Source: Rubellicoccus peritrichatus
GTDB taxonomy: Bacteria > Verrucomicrobiota > Verrucomicrobiia > Opitutales > Cerasicoccaceae
NCBI RefSeq assembly: GCF_033100135.1
Contig: NZ_CP136920.1
Coordinates: forward strand, 5,451,001-5,515,000
DNA: 64,000 nt
Reading direction: 5' to 3'
A program made the translations under genes and the position numbers. Positions 5,593 to 57,980 of the stretch are shown piece by piece. The notes under the pieces were generated by a model. The model was not told where the DNA came from, did not search any database, and saw nothing but the letters and a program-made list of their open reading frames with translations. The stretch's first letter is position 1. Every line of letters starts with the position of its first letter.

Positions 5593-6428
5593 TGCCCAGC
5601 CGAAAAACATATCACACGAAACGCAAAGAGCTTTCGCTTGGAAGCAAGACTTACCTGGTCGGCATTTTAAACCTCACTCCGGATTCGTTTTCCGATGGTG
5701 GTATTTTCGTAGAAACTGAGCAAGCCGTTGCACACTTCAACGCAATGGTCAAAGCGGGTGCTGAAATCATCGACATTGGCGGCGAATCAACACGCCCCGG
5801 CCATACACCTGTTCCCGCGAATGAGGAAATTGCCCGCGTGGTGCCCTTCATTGAAACCATCCGCCTGCAAACAGACACCTTGATCTCAATTGACACTTCC
5901 AAAAGCGAAGTAGCCGAAGCCGCTCTGATGGCTGGCGCTGATATCGTCAATGATGTCTGGGGCGCACAACGCGATCCGCAGATGGCCGAAGTGATCGCCA
6001 AGCACGAGGCGGCTTGCATTCTAATGCACAATCGACCAGCCGAAGAAGCTGGAAAAGGTGATGTCATTGACGCGATTACCCGTTTTTTCAAAAACTCAAT
6101 AAGTGTGGTCAAAAACGCCGGAGTCCGTGATGATGCCATCATGCTGGACCCGGGACTAGGCTTCGGAAAAACGTTTGAAGAGAACTGGGAAATCATGCGC
6201 CGCCTGGAAGAACTGCAAGCGATGGGCTATCCCCTGCTGCTGGGAGCCTCGCGCAAATCAATGATTGCCAAACTCCTCAATATCGAAAACCCCAAAGAGC
6301 GCACCAGCGGAACACTCGCAACTACAGCATTGGCAATTCAGGCCGGAGTTGATTTTGTTCGGGTGCATGACATCCGCGAAAATCGCGAATGCGCAGACGT
6401 CATGGATTATTGCTTACGACATGAATAA
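5592..6428 (+). CDS. folP: Dihydropteroate synthase
   Basis: Condenses p-aminobenzoate with hydroxymethyl-dihydropterin pyrophosphate; this is the sulfonamide target. Of 278 residues, signature 1 is ILNLTPDSFSDGG, signature 2 is IDIGGESTRPG, and the sequence continues with ISIDTSKSEVAEAAL, NDVWGAQ, LDPGLGFGKT, LLGASRKSMI and VRVHDI, the standard barrel strand-end motifs. It starts inside the pabC stop codon and overlaps folB by 8 nt. Confidence 0.96.
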   Translation: MPSRKTYHTKRKELSLGSKTYLVGILNLTPDSFSDGGIFVETEQAVAHFNAMVKAGAEIIDIGGESTRPGHTPVPANEEIARVVPFIETIRLQTDTLISIDTSKSEVAEAALMAGADIVNDVWGAQRDPQMAEVIAKHEAACILMHNRPAEEAGKGDVIDAITRFFKNSISVVKNAGVRDDAIMLDPGLGFGKTFEENWEIMRRLEELQAMGYPLLLGASRKSMIAKLLNIENPKERTSGTLATTALAIQAGVDFVRVHDIRENRECADVMDYCLRHE

Positions 6429-6786
6429 GACTAAAATTGAATTGAAAAACCTGGCTTTCTTTGCCCGTCACGGACTGATGAAGGAAGAGGAAGCACTGGG
6501 TCAGCGCTTCCGCCTTGATGTCCGGGTGGAAATCGACCCGAGCCTCGACCTCAGTGCCGACGCCCCGCACATAACAATCAATTACGTTGAGCTTTACGCA
6601 TTGGTGAAAGAAATCTTTGAAGGCAAGCGATTCAATCTGATTGAAAGCTGTGCTGACATGATAGCGCGGTCTATTCTGGAAAAGTTCGATAAAGCCATTG
6701 AAGTAAGCGTCACCATCAAAAAGCCATCGGTCCCGGTGGATTGCATCTGCGATTATTTTGCCACGGAGGTTACTCGATGCCGCTGA
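6421..6786 (+). CDS. folB: Dihydroneopterin aldolase
   Basis: Makes 6-hydroxymethyl-dihydropterin from dihydroneopterin. The 121-residue length fits the family. Motifs are ELKNLAFFARHGLMKEEEALGQRF near the N-terminus with the usual conserved glutamate, INYVELYALVK (the N-Y dyad) and SVTIKKPSVPV at the end. The frame stays open upstream inside folP, but the ATG at 6421 gives the family N-terminus (MNKTKIELKNL). It overlaps folP by 8 nt and folK by 10 nt. Confidence 0.93.
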   Translation: MNKTKIELKNLAFFARHGLMKEEEALGQRFRLDVRVEIDPSLDLSADAPHITINYVELYALVKEIFEGKRFNLIESCADMIARSILEKFDKAIEVSVTIKKPSVPVDCICDYFATEVTRCR

Positions 6787-7271
6787 CCATGGCCTACCTC
6801 GCCCTGGGCAGCAACCTGGGCGAACGCCTGAAACAAATGCGCTCCGCACTTGAAATACTGGAAGCGGATGGAAATGTGCAAATCGTCCGAGCCAGCCCCG
6901 TTTACCAAAACCGAGCCATCGGCATGGGTGAAGCCGATCCATTTTTAAACGCTGTTGTAAAAGTAAAAACATCGCTCTCGCCCGAAGCACTGCTTGATCT
7001 CTGCCTGAGCACCGAGAATAAACTCGGTCGTGTGCGCACTGATGGCTGGTCCCCCCGCACCATTGATATCGATGTGCTGCTTTACGGAGAAATCGATATG
7101 GACACCGAACGCCTGCGCTTACCACATCCAGCCATCGCAGAACGCGATTTTGTTGTCCAGCCACTACTCGACATTGCACCTGATCTGGAAATCAACGGCC
7201 AGTCGTTACAATCGATCAAAGACGCCCTGCCTGTATTCGAATTGGAAGAAGTCGACGCTGTACTTTGGTAA
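6777..7271 (+). CDS. folK: HPPK, hydroxymethyl-dihydropterin pyrophosphokinase
   Basis: Transfers pyrophosphate from ATP to hydroxymethyl-dihydropterin. The 164-residue protein has the N-terminal YLALGSNLGERL, the R..DGWSPRTIDIDVLLYG catalytic stretch with its magnesium-binding aspartates, and LPHPAIAERDFVVQPL. GGAGGT at 6765-6770 precedes the ATG at 6777 and rejects the longer frame from 6741. It is the last gene of the folate operon. Confidence 0.95.
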   Translation: MPLTMAYLALGSNLGERLKQMRSALEILEADGNVQIVRASPVYQNRAIGMGEADPFLNAVVKVKTSLSPEALLDLCLSTENKLGRVRTDGWSPRTIDIDVLLYGEIDMDTERLRLPHPAIAERDFVVQPLLDIAPDLEINGQSLQSIKDALPVFELEEVDAVLW

Positions 7272-7360
7272 GGCGCCGTCTCCAGGAGTCGCGCTCGTGA
7301 GAGCGTGGACCCGAAAATCCACCGTCTTACGACGGCGGTTACTGGAGACCGCGCCCTGCC
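7272..7360. repeat. Three-hairpin intergenic element
   Basis: The outer arms GGCGCCGTCTCCAG (7272-7285) and CTGGAGACCGCGCC (7342-7355) differ at one position. Between them sit two perfect hairpins: CGCTC-GTGA-GAGCG (7292-7305) and CCGTC-TTAC-GACGG (7322-7335). The outer arm resembles the GGCGYAGTCTCCAG arms of the elements at 54947 and 56459. It starts at the folK stop codon. Confidence 0.75.
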
Positions 7361-7384
7361 AATAAAACTGTCAAAGAACAAGAA

Positions 7385-7411
7385 AAGCACAGCGATGTGC
7401 TTGAGAGTTTT
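7385..7411 (+). terminator. Terminator of the folate operon
   Basis: Perfect stem AAGCACA and TGTGCTT closing a GCGA loop, then GAGAGTTTTC. It sits at the join between the folate operon and the phage block. Confidence 0.6.
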
Positions 7412-7873
7412 CTAAAAACCCTTGAGTCGTTCTCCACAAAGTGGATTAGACCGCCGCGATACGACTACGGGACCAAAGCTCGTGCGCACCTGTGGTGATA
7501 CTTCAGGATCCCCGGGGATCGATACCGGGAAAGATCCGCTGCCAATGCGAGTGAGTAATGTCGAAGCCTCAGAGGCCAGGTCCTCCTGCGCAGTAGTCAT
7601 GCTGAAGGCAGCTATCGAATCAGTCAAAAGCACCATCACAAGGTAAGCGCCACTACGGACAAGCTCAGGAGGAATCAAGGCAGAGTCTGCGCTCAGGATA
7701 TTTTTATCATGCGCACGAACCTCTCCACGAATACGCTCAACAATCGCCGCCAACGAAACCGTCAACGGATCATTAACCGTCCCAAGATCAGCGCGCGCCG
7801 CAACGGCATCGCGTTGCGCAGTGTTTAAGTAAGGCGAAATCTCCACCTCAGTAAGTGTTTTCCAAGTTTTCAT
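7412..7873 (-). CDS. Phage protein, probable head-tail connector
   Basis: A 153-residue protein from the ATG at 7873 (MKTWKTLTEVEISPYL); the frame extends to 7930. The helix-rich middle (AAIVERIRGEVRAHD, IPPELVRSGAYLVMVLL) and the position directly after the capsid gene resemble the Mu gp36/DUF1320 connector group. This is a structural inference, not a clear family match. It is the last gene of the head block. No tail gene follows, and its C-terminus ends at the folate operon terminator. Confidence 0.5.
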   Translation of the reverse strand: MKTWKTLTEVEISPYLNTAQRDAVAARADLGTVNDPLTVSLAAIVERIRGEVRAHDKNILSADSALIPPELVRSGAYLVMVLLTDSIAAFSMTTAQEDLASEASTLLTRIGSGSFPVSIPGDPEVSPQVRTSFGPVVVSRRSNPLCGERLKGF

Positions 7874-7978
7874 ATTACTATATTTTTTTTTGCCACAGAG
7901 GAAAATTAAGGTTATCGGTTTTTCAAACAATCTCGCCGGAGTCGGACCAGCGAGATTGCTTTAGTTATTGTATCAATA

Positions 7979-8914
7979 TCAGGATACAGTCAGCTTGCGA
8001 ATACCAAGCTGGCTCGTCACAACAATATTGCTGTAGTGCTCGACCGTAACGTCAGTGTACTTCGACGATTCTTCGAGGTAGACGCGGAAGGAACCTCCCC
8101 CGTCGACTGGCGTGACAAAGCGCTTCAGATTGGAAGGCTCATCTTTGCCATAAGCATCCTGGCCAAAGAAGGCGTAGACTGCATTGCCCACGATGCCGGA
8201 CTTAGCACTGGCCGCACTTTGATAACGCGCGGACGTAATACGCACGCCTTCGATCAGAAGCTTCCGGGCAAGACCATCGCTCGTCAGTGCCGCACTGGCG
8301 TAGGCACCGGCGTTGTTCTGCGACTCATAGGACGCAGCCCGCAAATCCCAGGCACCTTCGCCAAAGAGCACACGATTCGGACGCACGCCACTTTCATTCG
8401 CAGCAGCGATCAAGGCAGCGCGGATATCGCCATCGGGATTGCTGATATCATTCCAGCTTTTGTTCTCATTATCCGCAGCAGCGCTCAACACGCTGATAGC
8501 CCGGCGCAGCTCGTTACGCTGCAAACGTTGAAGCAATAGCTGAACCGCACGCTCCTGCCAATCATCGGTCATGGTTTCATCATGATCAATTCGCATCGTA
8601 AGTCCCTTGTTCAGCGTCTTCTCATTCACGGTTTCACCAGCATACTCGACACGCTTGAAGGCTCCACCAATTGCACGAATATCATCCGCTTCGGAAAAAA
8701 ATGCCTCGGCATTTTTCGCACGTTTGAATTCGAACCGGCGACCAACCGGGATCTTCGGAGCGATAAAATCAAGCATCGCCTCCAGATTCTCCGTATCCTT
8801 CCATCCAGCCGAAAACGCGGTCAAAGGCTCAGAATAATGAGCGCTGTTAAAACGGCTTTCATTGGCCGCACTGATTTCGTTAGCAACGAGTGTTTCTTTA
8901 GTTTCTGTTTTCAT
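7979..8914 (-). CDS. Phage major capsid protein
   Basis: A 311-residue protein placed after protease and cement genes, the normal place of the major capsid subunit in Mu-like heads. The sequence has an N-terminal helical region (about 1-60), a central QERAVQLLLQRLQRNELRRA helix, PNRVLFGEGAWDLR, and a beta-rich C-terminus ending in VVTSQLGIRKLTVS, consistent with an HK97-type subunit. There is no long scaffold-like prefix. The leader is A-rich (AAAATAAAATG) without a purine-rich ribosome site. Confidence 0.7.
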   Translation of the reverse strand: MKTETKETLVANEISAANESRFNSAHYSEPLTAFSAGWKDTENLEAMLDFIAPKIPVGRRFEFKRAKNAEAFFSEADDIRAIGGAFKRVEYAGETVNEKTLNKGLTMRIDHDETMTDDWQERAVQLLLQRLQRNELRRAISVLSAAADNENKSWNDISNPDGDIRAALIAAANESGVRPNRVLFGEGAWDLRAASYESQNNAGAYASAALTSDGLARKLLIEGVRITSARYQSAASAKSGIVGNAVYAFFGQDAYGKDEPSNLKRFVTPVDGGGSFRVYLEESSKYTDVTVEHYSNIVVTSQLGIRKLTVS

Positions 8915-8960
8915 TTTATTTTATTCTTTTGTATTTTAGATTTCTGTTAGTTTTTTCTTC

Positions 8961-9497
8961 TTATTCAGACAGCATGATAATCTTGTCAGGTGCTTTCTCA
9001 TATGTGGTGCTGAGTGCCAGAAAATCGACAATCGAACTTCCGGAGAAAGCATCCATAACAACGGTTTTTCGAGGCGAGACTGGCTCGACTTCCAGGACAT
9101 CACCGTCTCCGGCAGCATCAGTCAGTGCCCGGCCGATTTGATAATAAGTCCCAGCGACCAACGGCCGGTCCTGGACCTTTCCAGAAGCGGCAGTGTAGAC
9201 ATCCTCTCCCGCAGATATTGCCTCAGAGGCAATCATCAGAAGAGTCGAATCGACACTACCCGGCAGCGAGACATTGACATAATCGCCAGCCTCACCGCAG
9301 TCCGTGATCACACCAAGCGGTGCATCACCGGCATCGGCCAGATCGACTTGCGTCGAGGCAGAGCCAATCTTGCCAAGCAAATGGCGCGTAGTAATGTCAG
9401 ACTCCAGCATACGTGTGACCTGACCGGCATGAGTGCCTTCGGCTACATTACTGAATACCGGCTCATGGCGGATTACATTGATTAGTTTGTTTATCAT
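8961..9497 (-). CDS. Capsid cement / decoration protein (DUF2190-like)
   Basis: 178 residues. The middle resembles DUF2190 proteins that coat Mu-like and lambda-like capsids: PLGVITDCGEAGDYVNVSL, ISAGEDVYTAASGKV and YYQIGRALTDAAGDGDV. It lies between protease and capsid genes as expected. The N-terminal 50 residues and C-terminal 25 residues go beyond the usual domain. Confidence 0.6.
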   Translation of the reverse strand: MINKLINVIRHEPVFSNVAEGTHAGQVTRMLESDITTRHLLGKIGSASTQVDLADAGDAPLGVITDCGEAGDYVNVSLPGSVDSTLLMIASEAISAGEDVYTAASGKVQDRPLVAGTYYQIGRALTDAAGDGDVLEVEPVSPRKTVVMDAFSGSSIVDFLALSTTYEKAPDKIIMLSE

Positions 9498-9582
9498 ATT
9501 ATTTATCTTTCTATTTCGTTTTTGATGTTTGTTTCGTTTATTCAGCCATCAGCCCCATATGACCGATGGCTAAAAAGTTTCA

Positions 9583-10551
9583 TTAACGATTCACATTCAG
9601 CTCCTCGTATAGATCCGGGCGCTCACGCTTCAGTTGGGTCCAGGCATCGGCATAACTACTGCCATCGCCCTCAGCACGTTCATTGACCATCGCGATGAAA
9701 TCGGTCCGGCGACTAATCGCGCCCTTGCGCTGCCCCAGGCCACTGCTAATAAACTCCGCCCCTAGAACAGGCTCTGCATTACAAAGCTCCTCCAGCTTGA
9801 TTTCAAAATTGTCCTGTAGCTCTTGTTCCCAGGTTTCGCTGTCACTAGCTGCAATCCGACCTTCGCGCTGCGCTTTTTCCAGTAGCAACGTGATGCGCTC
9901 CCGTCGCTCATGAACAAAAGCGGATTCCGCCCTGGCCCGTGCAGCCTCGTGACCGGCAACGATCTTTTGAAAGCGTTCGTTTTGCATTACCAGTTCGTCA
10001 TCTGAAGCGGAATCCGCATCTACGATAGCTTCCGTTTCACTCCGTTCGCTTTCATTGGCAATGGCATCGCCAGGGATATTGGGCATATTCGTCAGCCCAA
10101 CGGAGATCAAACGCGTCGGCTCAAAAAGGTTCTCACCTATCGAACGCATAGCCCAGCGCGGTGAGAGGAATTTATAGAAAGCATTCTCCAGTAAACGACG
10201 CCCTTCTTCGGACCAGCGCGGCAAAATATAAAGCCCATCAAAACGAGCATCCATGTCCACAATCCAAGCATAAGCACGGGTGTCGTCGTGACCACTTTGT
10301 CCGGCAAAGCCAGGATCATCCGGATGCCCGATATAAATCGGCAATCCCCCAAAACGGCGGGCCATGCGCCCGCGCAAACTCTTGAAGTAGTCCGTAAGAC
10401 GCTCGGCACTACGACGGCTGAATCGCTGCATACCACGGGCATGCGGCCAGTCACCATACTCTGCCATTCGCAGCCAGGGGCCGTCTGAAGTTTTGTTCTG
10501 GTCGATGGCGTTAGAAACGCCGAATTCTATATTTTCTGATTTTGTATTCAT
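9583..10551 (-). CDS. Mu-like prohead protease (gpI type)
   Basis: Capsid-maturation protease with a probable C-terminal scaffold segment. From the ATG at 10551 it has 322 residues; the longer frame to 10599 lacks a better start. The N-terminal half has RRFGGLPIYIGHPDDPGF, the G-R-P-..-HP region of Mu protein I, and YKFLSPRWAM followed by ISVGLTNMPNIPGD, a typical serine-protease-like turn. The second half is charged and helical (HERRERITLLLEKAQREGR), as expected of a scaffold. It lies between portal and cement genes. Confidence 0.8.
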   Translation of the reverse strand: MNTKSENIEFGVSNAIDQNKTSDGPWLRMAEYGDWPHARGMQRFSRRSAERLTDYFKSLRGRMARRFGGLPIYIGHPDDPGFAGQSGHDDTRAYAWIVDMDARFDGLYILPRWSEEGRRLLENAFYKFLSPRWAMRSIGENLFEPTRLISVGLTNMPNIPGDAIANESERSETEAIVDADSASDDELVMQNERFQKIVAGHEAARARAESAFVHERRERITLLLEKAQREGRIAASDSETWEQELQDNFEIKLEELCNAEPVLGAEFISSGLGQRKGAISRRTDFIAMVNERAEGDGSSYADAWTQLKRERPDLYEELNVNR

Positions 10552-10687
10552 TTTTAATTTTTTATTGATGGTTGAATTTTGAAAAATTGAGTCACACATG
10601 CTGCGAAGCAGGCACAGCCCGGCTATCGCACGTAGTCTTTACGAACTTCGTGCCTCGTTTACGGTTGTTGTGGCCTGGGGACTTCTT

Positions 10688-11854
10688 CTACTCGGCCTTC
10701 CTTCCGATCAGCCGTGAGGCAAAGGTGGAAAATGCTTTAGGAATGGCCTGTAATAGGATTTCGCGAACGCCATCCATTTCCTCTACTGACAGACCAGCGT
10801 CTTTGTGTTTGATCGCGATGCGTGCCTTGGGCTGGTCGGTTCCAAAATGATGACGTATGACAAAACGATCAACCTGCTGATGCAATACACCCGAAAGATG
10901 GACCGTGTCTTCGCGCTCGATCAACGTCGTCTCCCGCCCCTGCAATGAAATACCCGAACCACCATCGGCAATCGTCCCCATGCTGGAACCGCGCCAGAGC
11001 GTTGCCATGGCCTTATCCATACGATCGACAAGTTGTGGGTAAGGCAACTGAGCCGACGAACTGAGGTCGACCGATTCAATCTCGGTGCCGCGTGACATAA
11101 GCGCGCTAAACTCCGCACCGAAATCACGCACAGCCTCGCGGGCGGCCTCCCACTCTGGTGTGCCCGGCACAGCATCGCTGACGCCGCGTACTCCCGGCAT
11201 CCCATTGCGCTCACAATAAATAAGCCAGTCGCGCAACGGCAGATGCTTAAAGAGATAGGCAATCGAGCAGGCTTCCATCAGACCATCGCCCGTCGTCACC
11301 ATCCAGGAATCACGATCGAGACTGCGCCCTTCGGTTGATCCCTCGCTTTCAATGAAACGCAGGGCACCAGTTCGGTTTTCAAAAAACCAGAGCGGAACAA
11401 ACTGAAACGTCGCCGAAAACGCTCCACCACGTCGCGCAGGACGCCAGACGATTTCGTGCACAGCATAGCGTTTGCCCACAGCGTCCATCATTTGACGAAG
11501 TAAGAGGGAGAAGCCACCGCGCTCGTTGCGATCACAGGCATGCGTCACTTCAATGTTCTTATAGAAAGCATCCAGCACTGCTTTGTGCTGCAAAGCTTCC
11601 TCATCACCTTCCTCGGCAATGACCTCCCAGCCAAATCTGGCAGGTGCTTTCTTCCTTTTTGTCGCAGCTGCTTTGATGACATCGTCCCGCTGCTCAATGG
11701 ATTCCCAGAGCAAGGCAGCGGAGCGCAATTCGCCAGCATGAAAGCCGTCAAGTATACGCGTCAACGATTCCGGCGTGAGTGATCGAATGGGTGTAAAACG
11801 CGCACGGCGACTAGCCAGCGTGCGTTGATGATTCAGTATGGATTGTGTTTTCAT
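10688..11854 (-). CDS. Phage portal protein (Mu gp29 / DUF935 type)
   Basis: Dodecameric vertex protein through which DNA is packaged. The 388 residues include LTRILDGFHAGELRSAALLWE, RDDVIKAAATKRKKAPARFGWEV, the central RYAVHEIVWRPARRGG stretch and MDKAMATLWRGSSMGT, all in DUF935 order. The Mu protein is longer, so this is a compact version. It is directly downstream of the terminase gene on the same strand. Confidence 0.85.
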   Translation of the reverse strand: MKTQSILNHQRTLASRRARFTPIRSLTPESLTRILDGFHAGELRSAALLWESIEQRDDVIKAAATKRKKAPARFGWEVIAEEGDEEALQHKAVLDAFYKNIEVTHACDRNERGGFSLLLRQMMDAVGKRYAVHEIVWRPARRGGAFSATFQFVPLWFFENRTGALRFIESEGSTEGRSLDRDSWMVTTGDGLMEACSIAYLFKHLPLRDWLIYCERNGMPGVRGVSDAVPGTPEWEAAREAVRDFGAEFSALMSRGTEIESVDLSSSAQLPYPQLVDRMDKAMATLWRGSSMGTIADGGSGISLQGRETTLIEREDTVHLSGVLHQQVDRFVIRHHFGTDQPKARIAIKHKDAGLSVEEMDGVREILLQAIPKAFSTFASRLIGRKAE

Positions 11855-11910
11855 AATTTCCTTTAAATATACTTTTTGCCTCTGAGATCCCTGCGGACTC
11901 TGTGACTAAT

Positions 11911-13278
11911 TTATTTCGTTCTGCGGTTTAGTTCCATGGTTTCGTAATGATATGTAGTGAGCGGCGCTTTGGCGGCATGGAGTGCGAGAGCCAGGGCCCA
12001 GAAGCGGTCGGCATGGCCGTTAGGACCGCGATCTGCGCTGAAGCGGACATGCCCTGCGGCGGTAGGTTCGCGACGAATCGCGCGCAAGTCGGCGCGGATA
12101 TATTTATCCGCCGGGATGCGCACCTTGTGATCTTCGAAGGCAGCCCTCAGGGGATAAGCGAGTTCCTCTTTGATCGGTGCGGTAAAAGTGATGCCTTCGA
12201 CCCGATAGCGTCCAAAACGCTCAATCGCGCGCTCGGCGAATTGTCTTCCAAGCCCACTTTGATCGATACAGGCACGGCGGAGGTTGGGCAGAGACAGGAG
12301 TTGATAAAGCACAGTTTCCTGCTGTGAAAATGGAACACCTTCCAGGCATTCGACCAAACGTGTGCGAATGACATCGCCAGCCAACTCGACAAGCCAGAAT
12401 ACGGTCAAGTCATGGTCGCGCCCAACATCAACACCGAGGTAAAGTGGATTGCCGGACAATGACTTTGCATTGCAGAGTGATCCTTCCCATATCTCGGTTT
12501 CATCATACTCACAAGCCGCGATCATATCCCAGCCGAGGAATGCAGAAACATCGTCGGCCGGCACACAACAGTACTCCTGCTGAAACGATTCTTCATCAGC
12601 GCAGGAAGCGCGGATAAAATCATAGTAAGCCGCCTCATCCATATCACACCGAGGATCATCGGCGGGCAGTTTTCTTTTTAGCTTCTGCAGGAAACCCTGC
12701 TCCAAAGCATCCTGCAATGTAACGCGATGCAGACTGAAGTTCTTGGGATTCCCTTTCTCGCGAATTTCGCGCACCAATTCGTTGAAGTAATTATTGGCAC
12801 CGCGATGGGTGGAGATAATTTCCAGATGTCCGCCCCAGGTAATTCCAGGATAAGCCACCGAATATAAACGACGCGGATCAGGATGGAGCGCAAACTCGTC
12901 AAGCACACGGGTGCCACGTTTGCCAGCCTGCGCATCAGGATTGCTCGACATGGAATGAATCCGCCGGCCAGAGGCAAACTCCAGCGTGAAGGCTGAACCA
13001 CGCGATTTGCCATCGAGAATTTGCAACCCAAGATCCTGCGCGGCGACATTAAGCACACCGGCAAATGCCGAACAATCTTCAAGAAAAAGCCTGGCCTGTG
13101 TTTCGTCTCGAGAAGAAATCCAGGTATCAAGTTTTGCGCCCTCGGCCTGACGGCGCACACAAGCGTAAGCCGAGCACCAGGAGAGGCCAATCTGCCGCGA
13201 CTTCTCCATCAGCTTGAGCCGGGAGCGGTCCTCAATCCATCGCTGCTGATAAGGGAGAAAGAAATTTTGTGTTTTCAT
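11911..13278 (-). CDS. Phage terminase large subunit (Mu gp28 type)
   Basis: DNA-packaging motor with ATPase and nuclease domains, 455 residues. LPYQQRWIEDRSRLKLMEKS leads into the Walker A-like KSRQIGLS (26-33). The Walker B motif is RVLDEFA with D127/E128. In the nuclease domain, D284 (LGVDVGRDHDLT), D339 (ACIDQSGLG) and the late aspartate of HADRFWALALA provide the RNase H-like acidic cluster. All catalytic residues look intact, so this gene is not obviously decayed. The next gene upstream on the same strand is separated from it by two plus-strand genes. Confidence 0.9.
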   Translation of the reverse strand: MKTQNFFLPYQQRWIEDRSRLKLMEKSRQIGLSWCSAYACVRRQAEGAKLDTWISSRDETQARLFLEDCSAFAGVLNVAAQDLGLQILDGKSRGSAFTLEFASGRRIHSMSSNPDAQAGKRGTRVLDEFALHPDPRRLYSVAYPGITWGGHLEIISTHRGANNYFNELVREIREKGNPKNFSLHRVTLQDALEQGFLQKLKRKLPADDPRCDMDEAAYYDFIRASCADEESFQQEYCCVPADDVSAFLGWDMIAACEYDETEIWEGSLCNAKSLSGNPLYLGVDVGRDHDLTVFWLVELAGDVIRTRLVECLEGVPFSQQETVLYQLLSLPNLRRACIDQSGLGRQFAERAIERFGRYRVEGITFTAPIKEELAYPLRAAFEDHKVRIPADKYIRADLRAIRREPTAAGHVRFSADRGPNGHADRFWALALALHAAKAPLTTYHYETMELNRRTK

Positions 13279-13310
13279 GATTTTTTTAAAATTGGAAAGT
13301 GATGAAATTC

Positions 13311-13430
13311 AGTGAGAAGGCAGAAAGCGGAAGTGGTGGAGCCTAGTGAGCAGGCAGAAGATTCTATAAGTTCAGTGGGTTCTTGTGTTTCAGGTCACAT
13401 TTAGCGTTTAGCATTTAGAATTCAGCGTTT
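13311..13430. repeat. Heptamer-word repeats in the terminase leader
   Basis: Two degenerate arrays in a gene-free gap. AGTGAGAAGGCAGAAAGCGG (from 13311) is the complement of the TTCTGCCTTCTCACTT words at 29231-29263. TTTAGCG-TTTAGCA-TTTAGAA-TTCAGCG (13400-13427) is a 7-bp array that recurs inverted at 57981-58014. Confidence 0.65.
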
Positions 13431-13485
13431 CCCCAGCTCATCCGACCTTGACCCTTGCAATTGCCAATGGCAGAATCCCGGCACC

Positions 13486-13905
13486 ATGAGATCTCACAAC
13501 AACTACCAAGTCAGTTGCGTGCGGGCAGTGATACTGATGACCGCACTCATACTTCCAGGAATCAGTCTGGGCCAGGCTCAACAACAAAACCAGACTCGCT
13601 CCGTCGTTGCGCGAAGAGCAGTAGAAAACAAGCAGCTGGAATCGATGGACGCGCAGCTCAGATCGGTTGAAACCAAAATCAACCAGTTGATCCAAAGTCA
13701 GGGCGGACGTTTCGTTTTTATTGTCTCGGGTGACGGAGAGTTCGTCCGCCTCGACACACAGAAAGGCGAGATCGCAGTCTTCAGTCTGGTCAAAGGAGCA
13801 AGGTGGTTCACACTCGATATCCCCGAGCAAACGATTCGCCCCGGAGATGCCTTTTACGAACAGTTCGTTCAGACCATTGACAAACTTGAATTCAACACAA
13901 ACTAA
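13486..13905 (+). CDS. Secreted protein embedded in phage block (cargo 1)
   Basis: 139 residues, family not recognised. The N-terminus is a signal peptide (hydrophobic stretch VRAVILMTALILPGISLGQA, cleavage likely near residue 30). A short helical linker with KQLESMDAQLRSVETKINQL follows, then a small beta-rich domain: RFVFIVSGDGEFVRLDTQKG and ARWFTLDIPEQ. It is transcribed against every surrounding phage gene. The next gene encodes a related domain (shared pattern R-DT--G--A, then W and IP or LP). A cargo or lysogenic-conversion role is inference. The overlapping minus-strand frame is rejected. Confidence 0.65.
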   Translation: MRSHNNYQVSCVRAVILMTALILPGISLGQAQQQNQTRSVVARRAVENKQLESMDAQLRSVETKINQLIQSQGGRFVFIVSGDGEFVRLDTQKGEIAVFSLVKGARWFTLDIPEQTIRPGDAFYEQFVQTIDKLEFNTN

Positions 13906-13944
13906 GAAAAAATCATTTTCAATTAATAACCAACACGTGTAACC

Positions 13945-14325
13945 ATGAAGAATATCGAACGTATCGTCACCCTCGTCCTTGCTCTCGCCGTTGCCGGATT
14001 GATTTACGGCCAGTGGGGTCAGTCTCAGCCTGAAGAGGCACAAAACGCCCAGGCGAAGAAGAAGATCGACCAGCGCCAAGTCATCGACATCGCATCGAAC
14101 AACAACATGATCCTCGGTGCAGGCCGTTTCAAAATGAAGAAGGTCCTGCTGAGCGAAGGTCAACGCGAAACCCTGATCCGCTTTGACACCGCGACAGGCG
14201 ACTATGCCATCCTCGACACTACGCTCCCCGCCTGGGTCCATGTAGAGCTGCCTACAGTCAAGCCCATCGGGCAATACGAAAACGATGCCCACATCAAGCT
14301 GATTGATGACGTTGTTTTTAATTAA
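13945..14325 (+). CDS. Secreted or membrane-anchored protein in phage block (cargo 2)
   Basis: 126 residues, no recognised family. It begins with a hydrophobic signal or anchor (IVTLVLALAVAGLIYGQWG) and a charged linker, then a beta-rich domain: AGRFKMKKVLLSEGQRETLI, RFDTATGDYAILDT, PAWVHVELP, ending KLIDDVVFN. It resembles the C-terminal half of the preceding gene, so the pair looks like an old duplication. The 39-bp gap suggests one transcript, closed by the hairpin at 14376. Confidence 0.65.
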   Translation: MKNIERIVTLVLALAVAGLIYGQWGQSQPEEAQNAQAKKKIDQRQVIDIASNNNMILGAGRFKMKKVLLSEGQRETLIRFDTATGDYAILDTTLPAWVHVELPTVKPIGQYENDAHIKLIDDVVFN

Positions 14326-14375
14326 TGAGTACATTTTGATTATAAAGTATTCAGTTGAATTTTTGTCTTTCGCAG

Positions 14376-14398
14376 GGGCGTCTGTTTCAGACGCCCTT
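14376..14398. terminator. Bidirectional hairpin between cargo and phage gene
   Basis: GGGCGTCTG and CAGACGCCC around a TTT loop, with T-rich sequence on both sides. It lies between convergent genes and can terminate both. Confidence 0.7.
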
Positions 14399-14416
14399 AC
14401 TTTTGTATTCGAACCT

Positions 14417-14812
14417 TTAGAGCATTCCGATTTGTGCTTCGATGTGCGTGATGAGATCCGAATCAATCGTGGTTTTGCGTAAAGTCGGACCGTTTTGTTT
14501 TTCCTCATGCTCAACCTCTTTCAGTTCCTGTTCGCGCAGCTTCAGCTCCAGACTCTTGATCTGGTTGTAAGCACCACTTAGCTTTTGAATGATACCTGCA
14601 ACGGTATTGAGCTCTGATGTCTCAAAACTTGGATTATCACAAAGATGGTCGAAGATCTTTTCCCAGGCGATAGCCACCGAGGCATCGGCTGCATTGTGCC
14701 CCGGGCAAATTGCCTCGAGCATAACTTCTGTCCGGCGGCGCGCCGCTTGTTGACGATCCAGCACACGCATCATTTGCGTAGTGACGGGTAGAATGGCTTT
14801 TTCAGATTTCAT
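14417..14812 (-). CDS. Small helical phage protein
   Basis: 131 residues, no clear family. The N-terminal half is helical (MKSEKAILPVTTQMMRVLDR; EVMLEAICPGHNAADASVAI). The C-terminal half is a coiled coil (AYNQIKSLELKLREQELKEV) with an acidic tail. It occupies the slot where Mu-like heads carry a small terminase-like gene upstream of the large terminase, but the two cargo genes separate it from that gene. Small-terminase function is only a positional guess. Confidence 0.5.
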   Translation of the reverse strand: MKSEKAILPVTTQMMRVLDRQQAARRRTEVMLEAICPGHNAADASVAIAWEKIFDHLCDNPSFETSELNTVAGIIQKLSGAYNQIKSLELKLREQELKEVEHEEKQNGPTLRKTTIDSDLITHIEAQIGML

Positions 14813-14843
14813 TTCTTAAAGTTGGTTAGTAAGTTTTTATTTC

Positions 14844-14908
14844 TTTGCCACAGAGGCACGAAGATAACCTGTTATAGTCTCTGCGCTCTCTGTGCCTCTG
14901 TGGCTAAA
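14844..14908. repeat. CCACAGAGG palindrome
   Basis: Inverted repeat TTTGCCACAGAGGCACGAAG against CTCTGTGCCTCTGTGGCTAA in the gap between two phage genes. It is built of 8-bp words (CACAGAGG, CACGAAGA). Related words occur at 20661, 29071 and 42404. Confidence 0.8.
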
Positions 14909-14912
14909 TTCC

Positions 14913-15242
14913 TTATTGCTTCAATTGCATGCGATCCGTCTTGACCGAAAGCTCCTGGATACGTTGCATCACGTTTTCACTTTGTGCGATGAGACGAGCC
15001 AGATGCTCGGCGTTCTTGTGAATCAACGCATGGGCCGATGTGAAATCCGCTTTCGTATCGCGCTGTTGCTGGAGGACCAGCTCGCGCAACTTGTCAACCT
15101 CGGCAATTGTCGCGTAAGTTATTTTAGGATCCGGTCTTTCCTTAAAGGATTCCCGCAGTTTTATCAGCAGCAGATAACCGCTGATTAAAGCCAGAGAAAC
15201 AGTAACAAAAGAACCGATGAATTGAGTATTTTCCAGAGACAT
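14913..15242 (-). CDS. Membrane-anchored coiled-coil phage protein
   Basis: 109 residues: one transmembrane helix (about 9-28, FIGSFVTVSLALISGYLLLI) followed by a long amphipathic helix to the C-terminus (EVDKLRELVLQQQRDTKADF). The layout resembles Mu gp25/DUF2730 proteins and also inner-membrane spanins, so its role may lie in lysis or early morphogenesis. The sequence alone does not decide. Confidence 0.5.
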   Translation of the reverse strand: MSLENTQFIGSFVTVSLALISGYLLLIKLRESFKERPDPKITYATIAEVDKLRELVLQQQRDTKADFTSAHALIHKNAEHLARLIAQSENVMQRIQELSVKTDRMQLKQ

Positions 15243-15366: not shown

Positions 15367-15813
15367 TTAGAGTTTATTGTGACCGGCGAGTGATCCGCCA
15401 AAGTAGAGACCGATGATGGCGCTGAGCAGATGCGTATCGAGCGGAGTCAGCGTAAGACCGCGCAGCTCAACCCAACGGATTTTCTCAACGTCGCTGGTGA
15501 AGAACATAAAGCCTTCTTCAATCTCGGGATAACCGACAAAGACGGGAAGATCCGGCATCCAGATCGCGACCACTTTGGGCAGTACGATGACAGAGAGAAC
15601 TGCAAGGAGCGCAATAACACGGCGCGTCCATTGAAAGCCGATGTCCCGGTGTTTTCGCGCTTTCTCGATGTGAGCGAAACGAGTGTTCAATGCCTGCAAG
15701 GCGTAGAGGCGTTCCTTGCGCTTGGCCTCCTGGCTCATGGCGAACAATTTCATTATGCCACCGATGAGCGAAGTCCCGAGCAGCGTGACGAGTTCTGTTG
15801 GTATTGGAAACAT
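15367..15813 (-). CDS. Phage membrane protein, holin-like
   Basis: 148 residues. An N-terminal amphipathic or hydrophobic segment (PTELVTLLGTSLIGGIMKLF), a charged helix (AMSQEAKRKERLYALQALN), a clear transmembrane helix (VIALLAVLSVIVLPKVVAIW) and a C-terminal hydrophobic segment (TLLSAIIGLYFGGSLAG-like). The arrangement fits a three-segment holin, but no catalytic partner lies beside it. It is the first gene of the head block, about 140 nt downstream of the promoter predicted at 15961-15988. Confidence 0.5.
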   Translation of the reverse strand: MFPIPTELVTLLGTSLIGGIMKLFAMSQEAKRKERLYALQALNTRFAHIEKARKHRDIGFQWTRRVIALLAVLSVIVLPKVVAIWMPDLPVFVGYPEIEEGFMFFTSDVEKIRWVELRGLTLTPLDTHLLSAIIGLYFGGSLAGHNKL

Positions 15814-15960: not shown

Positions 15961-16095
15961 ATAATATCATATTTTAAAAAAATGTCAATTGATATACTTG
16001 ATATACAGGATATGTTTGATTATTTTGATCATTTGGTTCATTTGGATGCCTTTGATCCGTTGGAATTCTTTGATATGTTTGATATATTGGATAAG
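15961..16095 (-). promoter_or_regulatory. 9-bp repeat array fused to a promoter, copy 1
   Basis: Read on the minus strand, ten 9-bp units of consensus CAAANNNAT run from CCAATATAT (about 16092) to CAAGTATAT. The next partial unit CAA continues into TTGACA (15988-15983), 16 bp, then TATTAT (15966-15961). The -35 is 6/6 and the -10 is 5/6. Transcription would start near 15954 and reach the first phage gene at 15813. The same layout occurs at 57538-57638. The rest of the 600-bp gap 15814-16413 holds an octamer repeat (CTTTGCGG three times, 16253-16276), the hairpin at 16335 and no convincing gene. Confidence 0.7.
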
Positions 16096-18566: not shown

Positions 18567-18929
18567 CTAGGCCGGCACCTTCTCAGAACGCCGCTTCATC
18601 GTGTCAGTAAGGCGCTCGGCAATGTCGCCCGGCTTGTAATTTGCGGTCTCCAGGAGAAACAAAGCCAGGCCTTCCCGGTGTATCTGGTATCGCCCTCTGC
18701 GCCTTTCATTTCCTCCCTTTCCATCGAATTGATGACCTAAAATACGGCCAGTTTTCAAGCAGTCACGAACATATTGATCAGAGCGTCCAATCATGGCAGC
18801 AACCTCCTTGGGCGTGAACCATTCCTGGCCGCTAGGCAGCATAGGATCGAAGTAATCGATGGCGATTTTCCGGGCATTTTCCGACAAATCGAGTGGAGCG
18901 TTGACAGTATCAGGTCGTTTAGCTTTCAT
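18567..18929 (-). CDS. Excisionase-like winged HTH protein
   Basis: 120 residues. The core EWFTPKEVAAMIGRSDQYVR is a MerR/excisionase-type HTH, followed by a basic wing (KGGNERRRGRYQIHREGLAL). Such small proteins act as phage excisionases or repressors. It is divergent from the gene at 19139 across 209 bp of AT-rich DNA. No integrase is adjacent, so its target is unknown; autoregulation through the palindrome at 18932 is a guess. Confidence 0.65.
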   Translation of the reverse strand: MKAKRPDTVNAPLDLSENARKIAIDYFDPMLPSGQEWFTPKEVAAMIGRSDQYVRDCLKTGRILGHQFDGKGGNERRRGRYQIHREGLALFLLETANYKPGDIAERLTDTMKRRSEKVPA

Positions 18930-19138: not shown

Positions 19139-19762
19139 ATGGCCATAACTGATCATCTAAAACACAAAACTATCGGCGTTTCATTTCCGCCAGAACTACG
19201 GCTGCGAGCAGCCGAACGCGCCCGTAGCCTAAGCCTGTCTTTCAGCAAGTATGTCACACTTTGCATCGAGTCGGAGCTCGAGGGCCGCCCTCCCCAAGGT
19301 ATGGTTGAAAATCTGCTTCCCAAAGGCAGTGAGGGCCTCGATCTGGACGATGCCATCGAAAAAGGTAAAGATTACAGCGTGATGAAAGCAGCTTCGATTG
19401 GCTTCGAGGACGACATTGAAGCGATTTTAAAAGAGGACGAATTCAACTACAAGCGTGCCGCACCAGCTGCACACCTGCGGACTGACTTCCTCGTCTACAA
19501 AGGCGATCCGGAAAACAGCAAGACTCCCAAGATAGCGCTTGAGTGTAAGTTCAACATCGCAAAACGCTCCACGATCGCCCTGGGGCAAGCTGTAATTTTG
19601 AAAGCCCTGCCTGAAATCAAAGGCGTGGTCCTCTGTGTGCCCTACCTGAAGCATTTCGACTCGCATGTTCGTGATGCATTCCAAAGCCAGGGCATTCCAG
19701 TGGCAACTCCCGACACAGTCAGTGACGTGATCCGGGAGGCGTTCAACAAGAAGGGTAGATAA
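19139..19762 (+). CDS. Ribbon-helix-helix / PD-(D/E)XK nuclease-like fusion
   Basis: 207 residues with two visible parts. Residues about 10-50 (KTIGVSFPPELRLRAAERAR, then a SFSKYVTLCIESEL helix) look like a ribbon-helix-helix DNA-binding domain. Residues about 105-175 show TDFLVYKG, then KIALECKFNI, then LGQAVILKA, the D...E-x-K...Q order of the PD-(D/E)XK restriction-nuclease fold, followed by a Rossmann-like GVVLCVPYLKHF strand. The middle (55-100) is acidic. A sequence-guided nuclease or an inactive DNA-binding derivative are both possible. I do not know a named family with this architecture. Divergent from the HTH gene. Confidence 0.65.
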   Translation: MAITDHLKHKTIGVSFPPELRLRAAERARSLSLSFSKYVTLCIESELEGRPPQGMVENLLPKGSEGLDLDDAIEKGKDYSVMKAASIGFEDDIEAILKEDEFNYKRAAPAAHLRTDFLVYKGDPENSKTPKIALECKFNIAKRSTIALGQAVILKALPEIKGVVLCVPYLKHFDSHVRDAFQSQGIPVATPDTVSDVIREAFNKKGR

Positions 19763-57447: not shown

Positions 57448-57537
57448 CTCAGCCTACAAATGCCAGGGGCGGCTGCCACAAAATTCCAAAAGTATCTTGA
57501 AGGTTGGTTGGTCCAGCATCATGCCTGACTGCCATCC

Positions 57538-57638
57538 AATATATCAAGTATATCAAACAGAGCCCAATGATCCAAATGATCAAACAGATCAAGGGTATCA
57601 AGCCGATCAATTGACGGATTTTTTCGGTGTGTTATAAT
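57538..57638 (+). promoter_or_regulatory. 9-bp repeat array fused to a promoter, copy 2
   Basis: Eight 9-bp units: CCAATATAT, CAAGTATAT, CAAACAGAG, CCCAATGAT, CCAAATGAT, CAAACAGAT, CAAGGGTAT, CAAGCCGAT. The next CAA continues into TTGACG (57611-57616), then 16 bp and TATAAT (57633-57638). The -35 is 5/6 and the -10 is 6/6. Start expected near 57645. No protein gene follows on this strand, so the promoter points at the RNA candidate below. Confidence 0.7.
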
Positions 57639-57644
57639 CGGTGG

Positions 57645-57975
57645 CATGAACACACAGCGAATATACAAACCACCTTAGCCATGCTTCCCGAAAACACGAA
57701 TGGTGATTAACGGTTTTCCATCACGCGATTTTGCCTCGGCAAGATCGGATTCGATTCAGTTTTAAATCAAGGACCGGGTTAATGTGAGGAAGACTTTTCC
57801 ACGAGTGGTTTTTCGGCTGTCGTCGCAGGAGTTTAAAAGCTCCGACAAATCAGCCACGCTTGCCCAGGTGCGCAAGTGTGGGACCGCCCAAGTCTTAAAC
57901 GATTAGACGAACAAAAGCTGGAGGTTGCACTCTACGCGAGACTTATCGCCGGACGGTAAACGTTCTTTGACAGTC
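57645..57975 (+). ncRNA. Candidate structured RNA
   Basis: A gene-free stretch downstream of a near-consensus promoter, dense in hairpins: GTGAT/ATCAC (near 57691), TTGCC/GGCAA (near 57732), GGCTG (57815-57819) with CAGCC (57851-57855) enclosing GTC/GAC and GGAG/CTCC, and CTTGC (57859-57863) with GCAAG (57872-57876). It does not match tmRNA, RNase P, 6S or SRP RNA consensus by eye. The 3' end is uncertain; no T-tract terminator was found. Boundaries are estimates. Confidence 0.45.
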
Positions 57976-57980
57976 AAGTT

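Follow-up and report, generated by a model that had tools for sequence, protein, structure and literature searches.

Contiguous arrays of 9-bp direct repeats stand at the promoters of a dispersed set of loci in Rubellicoccus peritrichatus, keep a fixed register to the -10 box, and recur in related Opitutales, where the repeated unit changes while its 9-bp step does not. We read these arrays as tandem operators for a BldC-like regulator that would stack on the direct repeats and control a regulon, a reading to which we give somewhat better than even odds (a probability of roughly 0.55). In this scheme, each protomer of a small DNA-binding regulator would occupy one 9-bp unit, protomers would stack head to tail along ~4 to 12 contiguous units, and the resulting filament would stop at the -35 region, where it could contact RNA polymerase and switch the regulon on or off together. 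The regulon would include a domesticated phage-head cluster resembling a gene transfer agent (GTA), HU-like genes and multi-copy structured RNAs, and the regulator would be the BldC-like winged-HTH protein encoded at 18567-18929 of the window, by which we mean the whole 64,000-nucleotide stretch that was analysed, located at 5451001-5515000 on a 5.8 Mb contig.

Arrays and abutting promoters in the window

The window holds two arrays. Locus 2 (57534-57610, + strand) consists of nine 9-bp units, the last reduced to ATCAA, in the order ATCCAATAT ATCAAGTAT ATCAAACAG AGCCCAATG ATCCAAATG ATCAAACAG ATCAAGGGT ATCAAGCCG ATCAA, and is adjoined without a gap by the promoter TTGACG-N16-TATAAT (57611-57638, + strand; TTGACG at 57611-57616, TATAAT at 57633-57638). 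Locus 1, on the - strand, has twelve units, of which the last is likewise only ATCAA (15989-16092), and leads into TTGACA-N16-TATTAT (15961-15988; TTGACA at 15983-15988, TATTAT at 15961-15966). An earlier, sequence-only reading had described the gapless run into the -35 box at both loci and their common first unit, ATCCAATAT; the coordinates agree on both points, while its counts of eight (locus 2) and ten units (locus 1) were too low. Tandem Repeats Finder at a score of 40 reported neither array, since three to four positions vary from unit to unit. In the window, 9-bp and 15-bp spacing each gave one run of four YCAA, and eight other spacings gave none.

Arrays across the host genome

The motif that joins array end and promoter, ATCAA-N4-ATCAATTGAC-N17-TATNAT, gave 16 matches in the genome at up to 3 mismatches against none for the reversed control, and a four-unit array pattern gave 95 against none (5.8 Mb genome); measured against the reversed control, the window arrays are not a product of chance. 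All matches to the four-unit pattern with at most 2 mismatches collapse to 19 loci, and 13 additional loci that match at 3 mismatches only were counted as background. A promoter stands at the end of the array in 19 of 19 cases, so the outcome that would have spoken against a promoter element, namely arrays lying mostly elsewhere, is not what the host genome presents. Measured from the C of the terminal YCA, the -10 box is 25 bp away at 16 loci and 26 bp away at 3, and at these three the -35 regions are unlike TTGACA. Because the -35 boxes of these three promoters are poor, we think activation by the regulator likelier than repression.

Downstream of the 19 arrays lie the dispersed RNA element (15 cases), the packaging cluster (locus 1), two HU-like genes and one ORF for a repeat protein. 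The two HU-like products are paralogous 237-aa proteins (HU-DNA_bdg, DUF4469). The repeat-protein ORF (113 aa; L076, 6108-6449) is made of a 7-codon repeat with a SNASFE-like product. Locus 2, described earlier as one of two unrelated sites, is in fact no isolated site but one of the 15 dispersed copies, which are 88-95% identical to the window copy (three insertion copies and one split copy match piecewise), and because 15 of the 19 arrays belong to copies of one element, the array sites are not all independent.

Arrays in related genomes

Arrays, mostly of other 9-bp units, precede the same packaging cluster in 12 other genomes, which with the host span five families. The 600 nt upstream of the first cluster gene were scored for four units, the last YCA and a -10 box at fixed distance, against 400 dinucleotide shuffles per genome (p floor 0.0025), in 29 of the 30 genomes with a match to that gene, G055 being left out for its partial match. 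A p of at most 0.015 was reached by 14 of the 29 genomes and by 13 after removal of G352, whose array was dropped as spurious because it has no -10-like hexamer. The positive genomes (G000, G117, G083, G094, G104, G069, G039, G009, G047, G031, G026, G157 and G015) belong to families f1, f5, f10, f16 and f26; in G039, G157 and G015 the best-scoring register was shifted and the array was accepted by eye. The other 16 of the 29, G352 counted, have no convincing array in the 600 nt before the cluster. This test confirms rather than discovers, because arrays were already known from most of these genomes when the score was devised; those of G009 and G015 were recognised by the score itself and that of G031 just before. 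Across these genomes the unit sequence drifts (ATCAAACAG, GCCAACTGA, CCCAACGCA, AGCCAAAAT) while the 9-bp step remains constant.

A count that speaks against the reading comes from 363 kb around the cluster, where strict runs of four YCAA numbered two at each of 9-bp and 8-bp spacing and one of the 9-bp pair lies away from a promoter. A strict filter of four YCAA in five units found no run at 9-bp spacing and 0 to 2 at nine other spacings in 80 named terminase loci; the same filter also misses known arrays, such as that of Cerasicoccus arenae.

Among 10 genomes of the family, the host-type array pattern matched the host only, and a pattern built on the GCCAACTGA unit matched 4, all of genus g3 (91 matches versus 5 for the control). 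Of 37 array loci fetched from g3 genomes, 25 lead, by eye, into a -35/-10 pair (one is truncated by a contig end, and the scores of L173 and L178 are no better than those of the others), and 12 (11 in G083, 1 in G094; by eye) run into other repeats where an ordinary promoter is missing. The proposal of a dispersed cis-regulatory module that ends at the -35 box fits all 19 host arrays and the design kept across families, and is incomplete for these 12 of the relatives' arrays. The promoterless arrays (L175-L177, L180 and L182-L188 in G083; L196 in G094), several of them just past a gene end, continue into CCAAAATAGCGTTTCC or similar sequence and tandem units of ~23 bp (AAAAGC...TATGCT...TTTTC). 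The packaging cluster is preceded by an array in 4 of 4 g3 genomes, and other g3 genes behind arrays include HU-like genes, ilvD (three genomes), gyrB, an enoyl reductase gene, a sialic-acid esterase-like gene and a response-regulator gene.

The phage-like packaging cluster

The first gene behind locus 1 (15367-15813, - strand) has orthologues that head a phage-like cluster in relatives, and was matched in 30 of 372 genomes of the order. Beyond it lies the head and packaging cluster (6400-15242, - strand), with terminase, Mu portal, Mu protease I, cement/scaffold and major head protein genes; a further product resembles Mu Gp27 weakly, below the cut-off, and other ORFs gave no match. In a comparison of 21 loci, some of them truncated by contig ends, the protease, terminase, portal and head genes lie together in 13 to 17. 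These core genes are conserved at a chromosomal locus across relatives, as in GTAs, genomes of ~1 Mb included, which suggests that this Mu-type cluster is domesticated and GTA-like. Elsewhere on the host contig, four equal-scoring matches to a weak relative of the locus 1 gene (4479484, 4515204, 4550924 and 4586644) are spaced by exactly 35,720 bp, and probably represent a prophage-like unit of 35.7 kb repeated in tandem, or else an error of assembly.

A candidate regulator

The leading candidate for the array binder is a predicted small winged-HTH protein of 120 aa (18567-18929, - strand), with an HTH_17 match below the Pfam cut-off and a BldC-like predicted fold; it was chosen mainly because the 9-bp step and the fold both match BldC. 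An AF2 model built from 16 homologues has modest confidence (pLDDT 71, pTM 0.55). A Foldseek search of the PDB with this model placed BldC-DNA complexes first (6ama, 6amk; probability 1.00, E 0.019) and returned no match at E 0.001, and VIA (Z 6.9-7.1) ranked BldC level with phage Xis, with MerR and terminase small-subunit domains lower.

Homologues of the candidate occur in 76 of the 372 order genomes and in 10 of 10 family genomes. They are present in 25 of the 30 genomes with the first cluster gene and in 13 of 13 with an array before the cluster, a co-occurrence with a hypergeometric probability of 1e-14 that ignores phylogeny. It may reflect ancestry, because 51 of the 76 candidate genomes have no match to the cluster gene and because 12 of the 25 with both genes (G040, G044, G059, G070, G107, G118, G120, G130, G139, G147, G166 and G175) have no convincing array before the cluster.

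Among 30 regions upstream of candidate genes, 29, the host's included, gave no array at p 0.01. The remaining genome, G017, of a sixth family (f18), has an array (p 0.005) ~590 nt upstream of the HTH gene, beyond an opposing ORF. This array (L259) has GCCAACGCA-like units that begin directly after a gene end and extend from ~640 to 540 nt before the HTH gene; a GTTCTTTGAC motif follows, with GTTCTTTGACC within ~90 nt. The G017 genome is 50% complete and gave no match to the packaging-cluster gene. In several families (L256, L258, L260, L264 and L265), the HTH gene comes after one for a small conserved protein (called at 72-99 aa; ...KLExEPxxxRxxLYExLAEFLPxE...).

Alternative explanations

An alternative that we consider unlikely is that the arrays are bound by a ribbon-helix-helix (RHH) protein, much as omega binds 7-bp heptads. 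A 207-aa protein with an RHH-like N-terminus (by eye) is encoded at 19139-19762 (+ strand) as the divergent neighbour of the host HTH gene, the HTH gene of G069 and of G083 has another RHH-looking gene (68 aa, by eye) immediately before it, and contiguous short repeats over promoters are known to be bound by RHH proteins (PMC9499535). Against this, stretches of up to 20 kb around the cluster in 20 related genomes hold no relative of the 207-aa protein, the protein matches nothing in Pfam, PHROGs or NCBIfam, a different small protein stands upstream of the HTH gene in G039, G129, G117, G025 and G075, and the window contains no run of four YCAA at the 7-bp spacing of the RHH heptad operator (WATCACW). 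The tail of the 207-aa protein resembles, by eye, a PD-(D/E)XK nuclease core.

Binding by the HU-like proteins themselves (HU-DNA_bdg with DUF4469), which would recognise the arrays in an IHF-like manner and autoregulate, was favoured at first and now appears improbable. By eye, arrays stand in 7 of 27 regions upstream of HU-like genes, namely before two of the four such genes of the host and before five in other, Cerasicoccus-type genomes of the family, with a GCCAACTGA-like unit (the 27 regions derive from 28 match rows, one being the second half of the same gene). The unit core WATCAA resembles the IHF half-site. IHF also co-activates the GTA cluster of Caulobacter (PMC11150451). The reading was weakened by array-bearing genomes that have no HU-DUF4469 protein: G069, with seven array promoters, gave no match at E 1e-5, and the same holds for G117 and the array-before-cluster genomes of f5, f10, f16 and f26, so that an HU-like gene is not found wherever arrays occur; moreover, 20 of the 27 upstream regions show no array by eye.

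It is also conceivable, but very unlikely, that the array works as DNA only, as a flexible or AT-rich upstream element for RNA polymerase with no dedicated regulator. The array does abut the -35 box and the host arrays are AT-rich, but Cerasicoccus-type units are richer in G+C at the same 9-bp step, 9 bp is not the helical repeat of DNA, and 8 to 12 units are far longer than a UP element. Stacking of a dedicated regulator fits most of the findings (arrays at promoter ends, a design kept across families), and to this extent the oligomerising regulator proposed from the sequence is partly supported. The sequences themselves show the arrays, their constant register to the -10 box, their dispersal and a design that persists as the unit drifts; binding by a protein, its oligomerisation, the identity of the binder and the sign of control are what we infer.

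Comparison with known systems

The closest model for a stacking regulator of this kind is BldC of Streptomyces, each protomer of which binds one 9-bp direct repeat, head to tail, with a footprint from ~-60 to -10 in the smeA-sffA promoter (PMC5859096). Small winged-HTH fold, 9-bp direct repeats, head-to-tail oligomer and variable repeat number would be common to both systems, the protein features being predicted here (PMC5859096). BldC operators follow the consensus AATTXXXX(C), with two repeats at whiI and four at smeA-sffA (PMC5859096), whereas the units of the arrays (ATCAANNNN / GCCAACNGA) do not match that consensus and the arrays in the host and its relatives have a YCAA/CCAAC core, up to twelve units and a fixed -10 register; the candidate, with 120 residues, is also longer than BldC, with 68.

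Other systems are similar in part. RptR binds three 9-bp imperfect direct repeats in a promoter in a cooperative, modular way, but every repeat contains a 6-bp palindrome, two of them extend over the -10 box, and RptR is a defence-island repressor and a different, dimeric protein (PMC12255303). The omega/ParB parS sites of plasmid pSM19035 comprise short repeats, seven to ten in unbroken series, that lie over promoters, and full ParA activation requires four in a row; they differ in being 7-bp WATCACW heptads of mixed orientation, bound by an RHH protein and serving plasmid partition (PMC9499535). The Caulobacter GTA cluster is controlled by GafY, IHF and the antiterminator GafZ, and is alike in pairing a phage-like cluster with a dedicated promoter-binding system whose targets include other genomic sites; it belongs to a different bacterial group, and the part of that source drawn on here mentions no repeat array (PMC11150451). 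Because the BldC, RptR and pSM19035 repeats are similar in kind, the earlier statement that no element of this form had been described was too strong. A literature search in a limited collection found no description of these particular arrays, and in the searched literature we have not seen described their length, fixed register, genome-wide use, conservation with drifting units, or link to a phage-like cluster and RNAs.

If the stacking reading is true, the arrays would amount to an operator code that spans the genome and can be read from the sequence itself, for a group in which little is known of gene regulation, and they would connect host regulators with a conserved phage-like packaging cluster that persists even in genomes of ~1 Mb. 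The change of unit between genera at a fixed step would then be a natural data set on the co-evolution of a stacking regulator and its sites.

The dispersed element and its RNA

The element that accounts for most host arrays has a constant layout of array, promoter, short ORF ending Pro-Pro-stop and structured RNA (~330 nt with the mini-ORF), in 15 copies in the host genome. In the window, the leaderless-looking mini-ORF MNTQRIYKPP-stop (57646-57678, + strand) begins 7 nt past the -10 box and is followed by the structured RNA body (57679-57979, + strand), near whose 3' end lies GTTCTTTGACA (57962-57972, + strand), a putative boxA-like antitermination element that is found in 15 of 15 copies. 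The ATG 7 nt after the -10 box and the Pro-Pro-stop end, a termination-stalling signal, are likewise kept in all 15. The mini-ORF has 10 codons in 12 copies and 64, 64 and 40 codons in the three copies (L002, L006 and L013) with a related in-frame insertion at the same place, in which the Pro-Pro-stop end is preserved; L004 has a different insertion, in a hairpin loop. That three copies have this insertion at one place implies copying of the element. The nearest downstream ORF (ORFs called mechanically) faces the element in 11 of 15 cases, and the element is therefore not the leader of a fixed gene.

That the arrays are hitchhiking parts of this mobile repeat with no regulatory role, as the 15 dispersed copies and the copied insertion might imply, is hard to credit, given that arrays stand before the cluster and HU-like genes with no element body, in several families and with different units.

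The fold was derived from alignment A1, with 11 of the 15 copies (the four with insertions left out); a further alignment, A3, holds 13 (L002 and L004 left out). In the common fold of the 11 insertion-free copies, 98.1% of cells are paired, against 34.8-45.7% when the structure is slid along the alignment. Five pairs are changed on both sides (shuffled mean 1.8, with 5 of 500 shuffles attaining five; sliding gave 2 to 4) and the covariation score is reached by none of 500 shuffles, values to be read in the knowledge that the close similarity of the copies leaves about half of the pairs invariant and that the same copies supplied the structure. Rfam 15 gave no match in the window at the gathering score and one chance-level match to the element (E 3.2); blastn over the 372 order genomes found outside the host only two short, chance-looking matches, and an exact 24-mer scan of genome contigs, the host's own record excluded, found none. 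This RNA, with its 15 copies, appears to constitute a separate new family.

More tentatively than the operator reading itself, we suggest a global control in Opitutales in which a BldC-like polymer on ~4-12 repeats would switch the GTA-like cluster, HU-like proteins and the new RNAs in step, each RNA consisting of a leaderless Pro-Pro-stop mini-ORF, a structured body and a boxA-like 3' motif. In G104, arrays precede four copies of another RNA that can fold, with a mini-ORF that also ends Pro-Pro-stop. One further locus, L193, has a Pro-Pro-stop ORF; an ATG at this position also occurs at eleven more loci, including two that precede HU-like genes, and there opens no such ORF. Homology of the G104 RNAs to the window RNA was considered and rejected: a covariance model of the 3' domain, run on 26 loci, gave one match, at E 2.3 and elsewhere. 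Because the model has no match in the G104 RNAs, the two RNAs are alike in layout only.

Two further features of the host RNA copies were observed. Thirteen of the 15 are on the minus strand and are distributed along most of the contig, a bias that replication direction alone would not explain. By eye, an inverted repeat (TAGGGCGCAGTCTCCAGACAAGCCG...), perhaps a REP-like element or a terminator, stands just before the array in 8 of the 15 copies (L003, L005-L008 and L011-L013).
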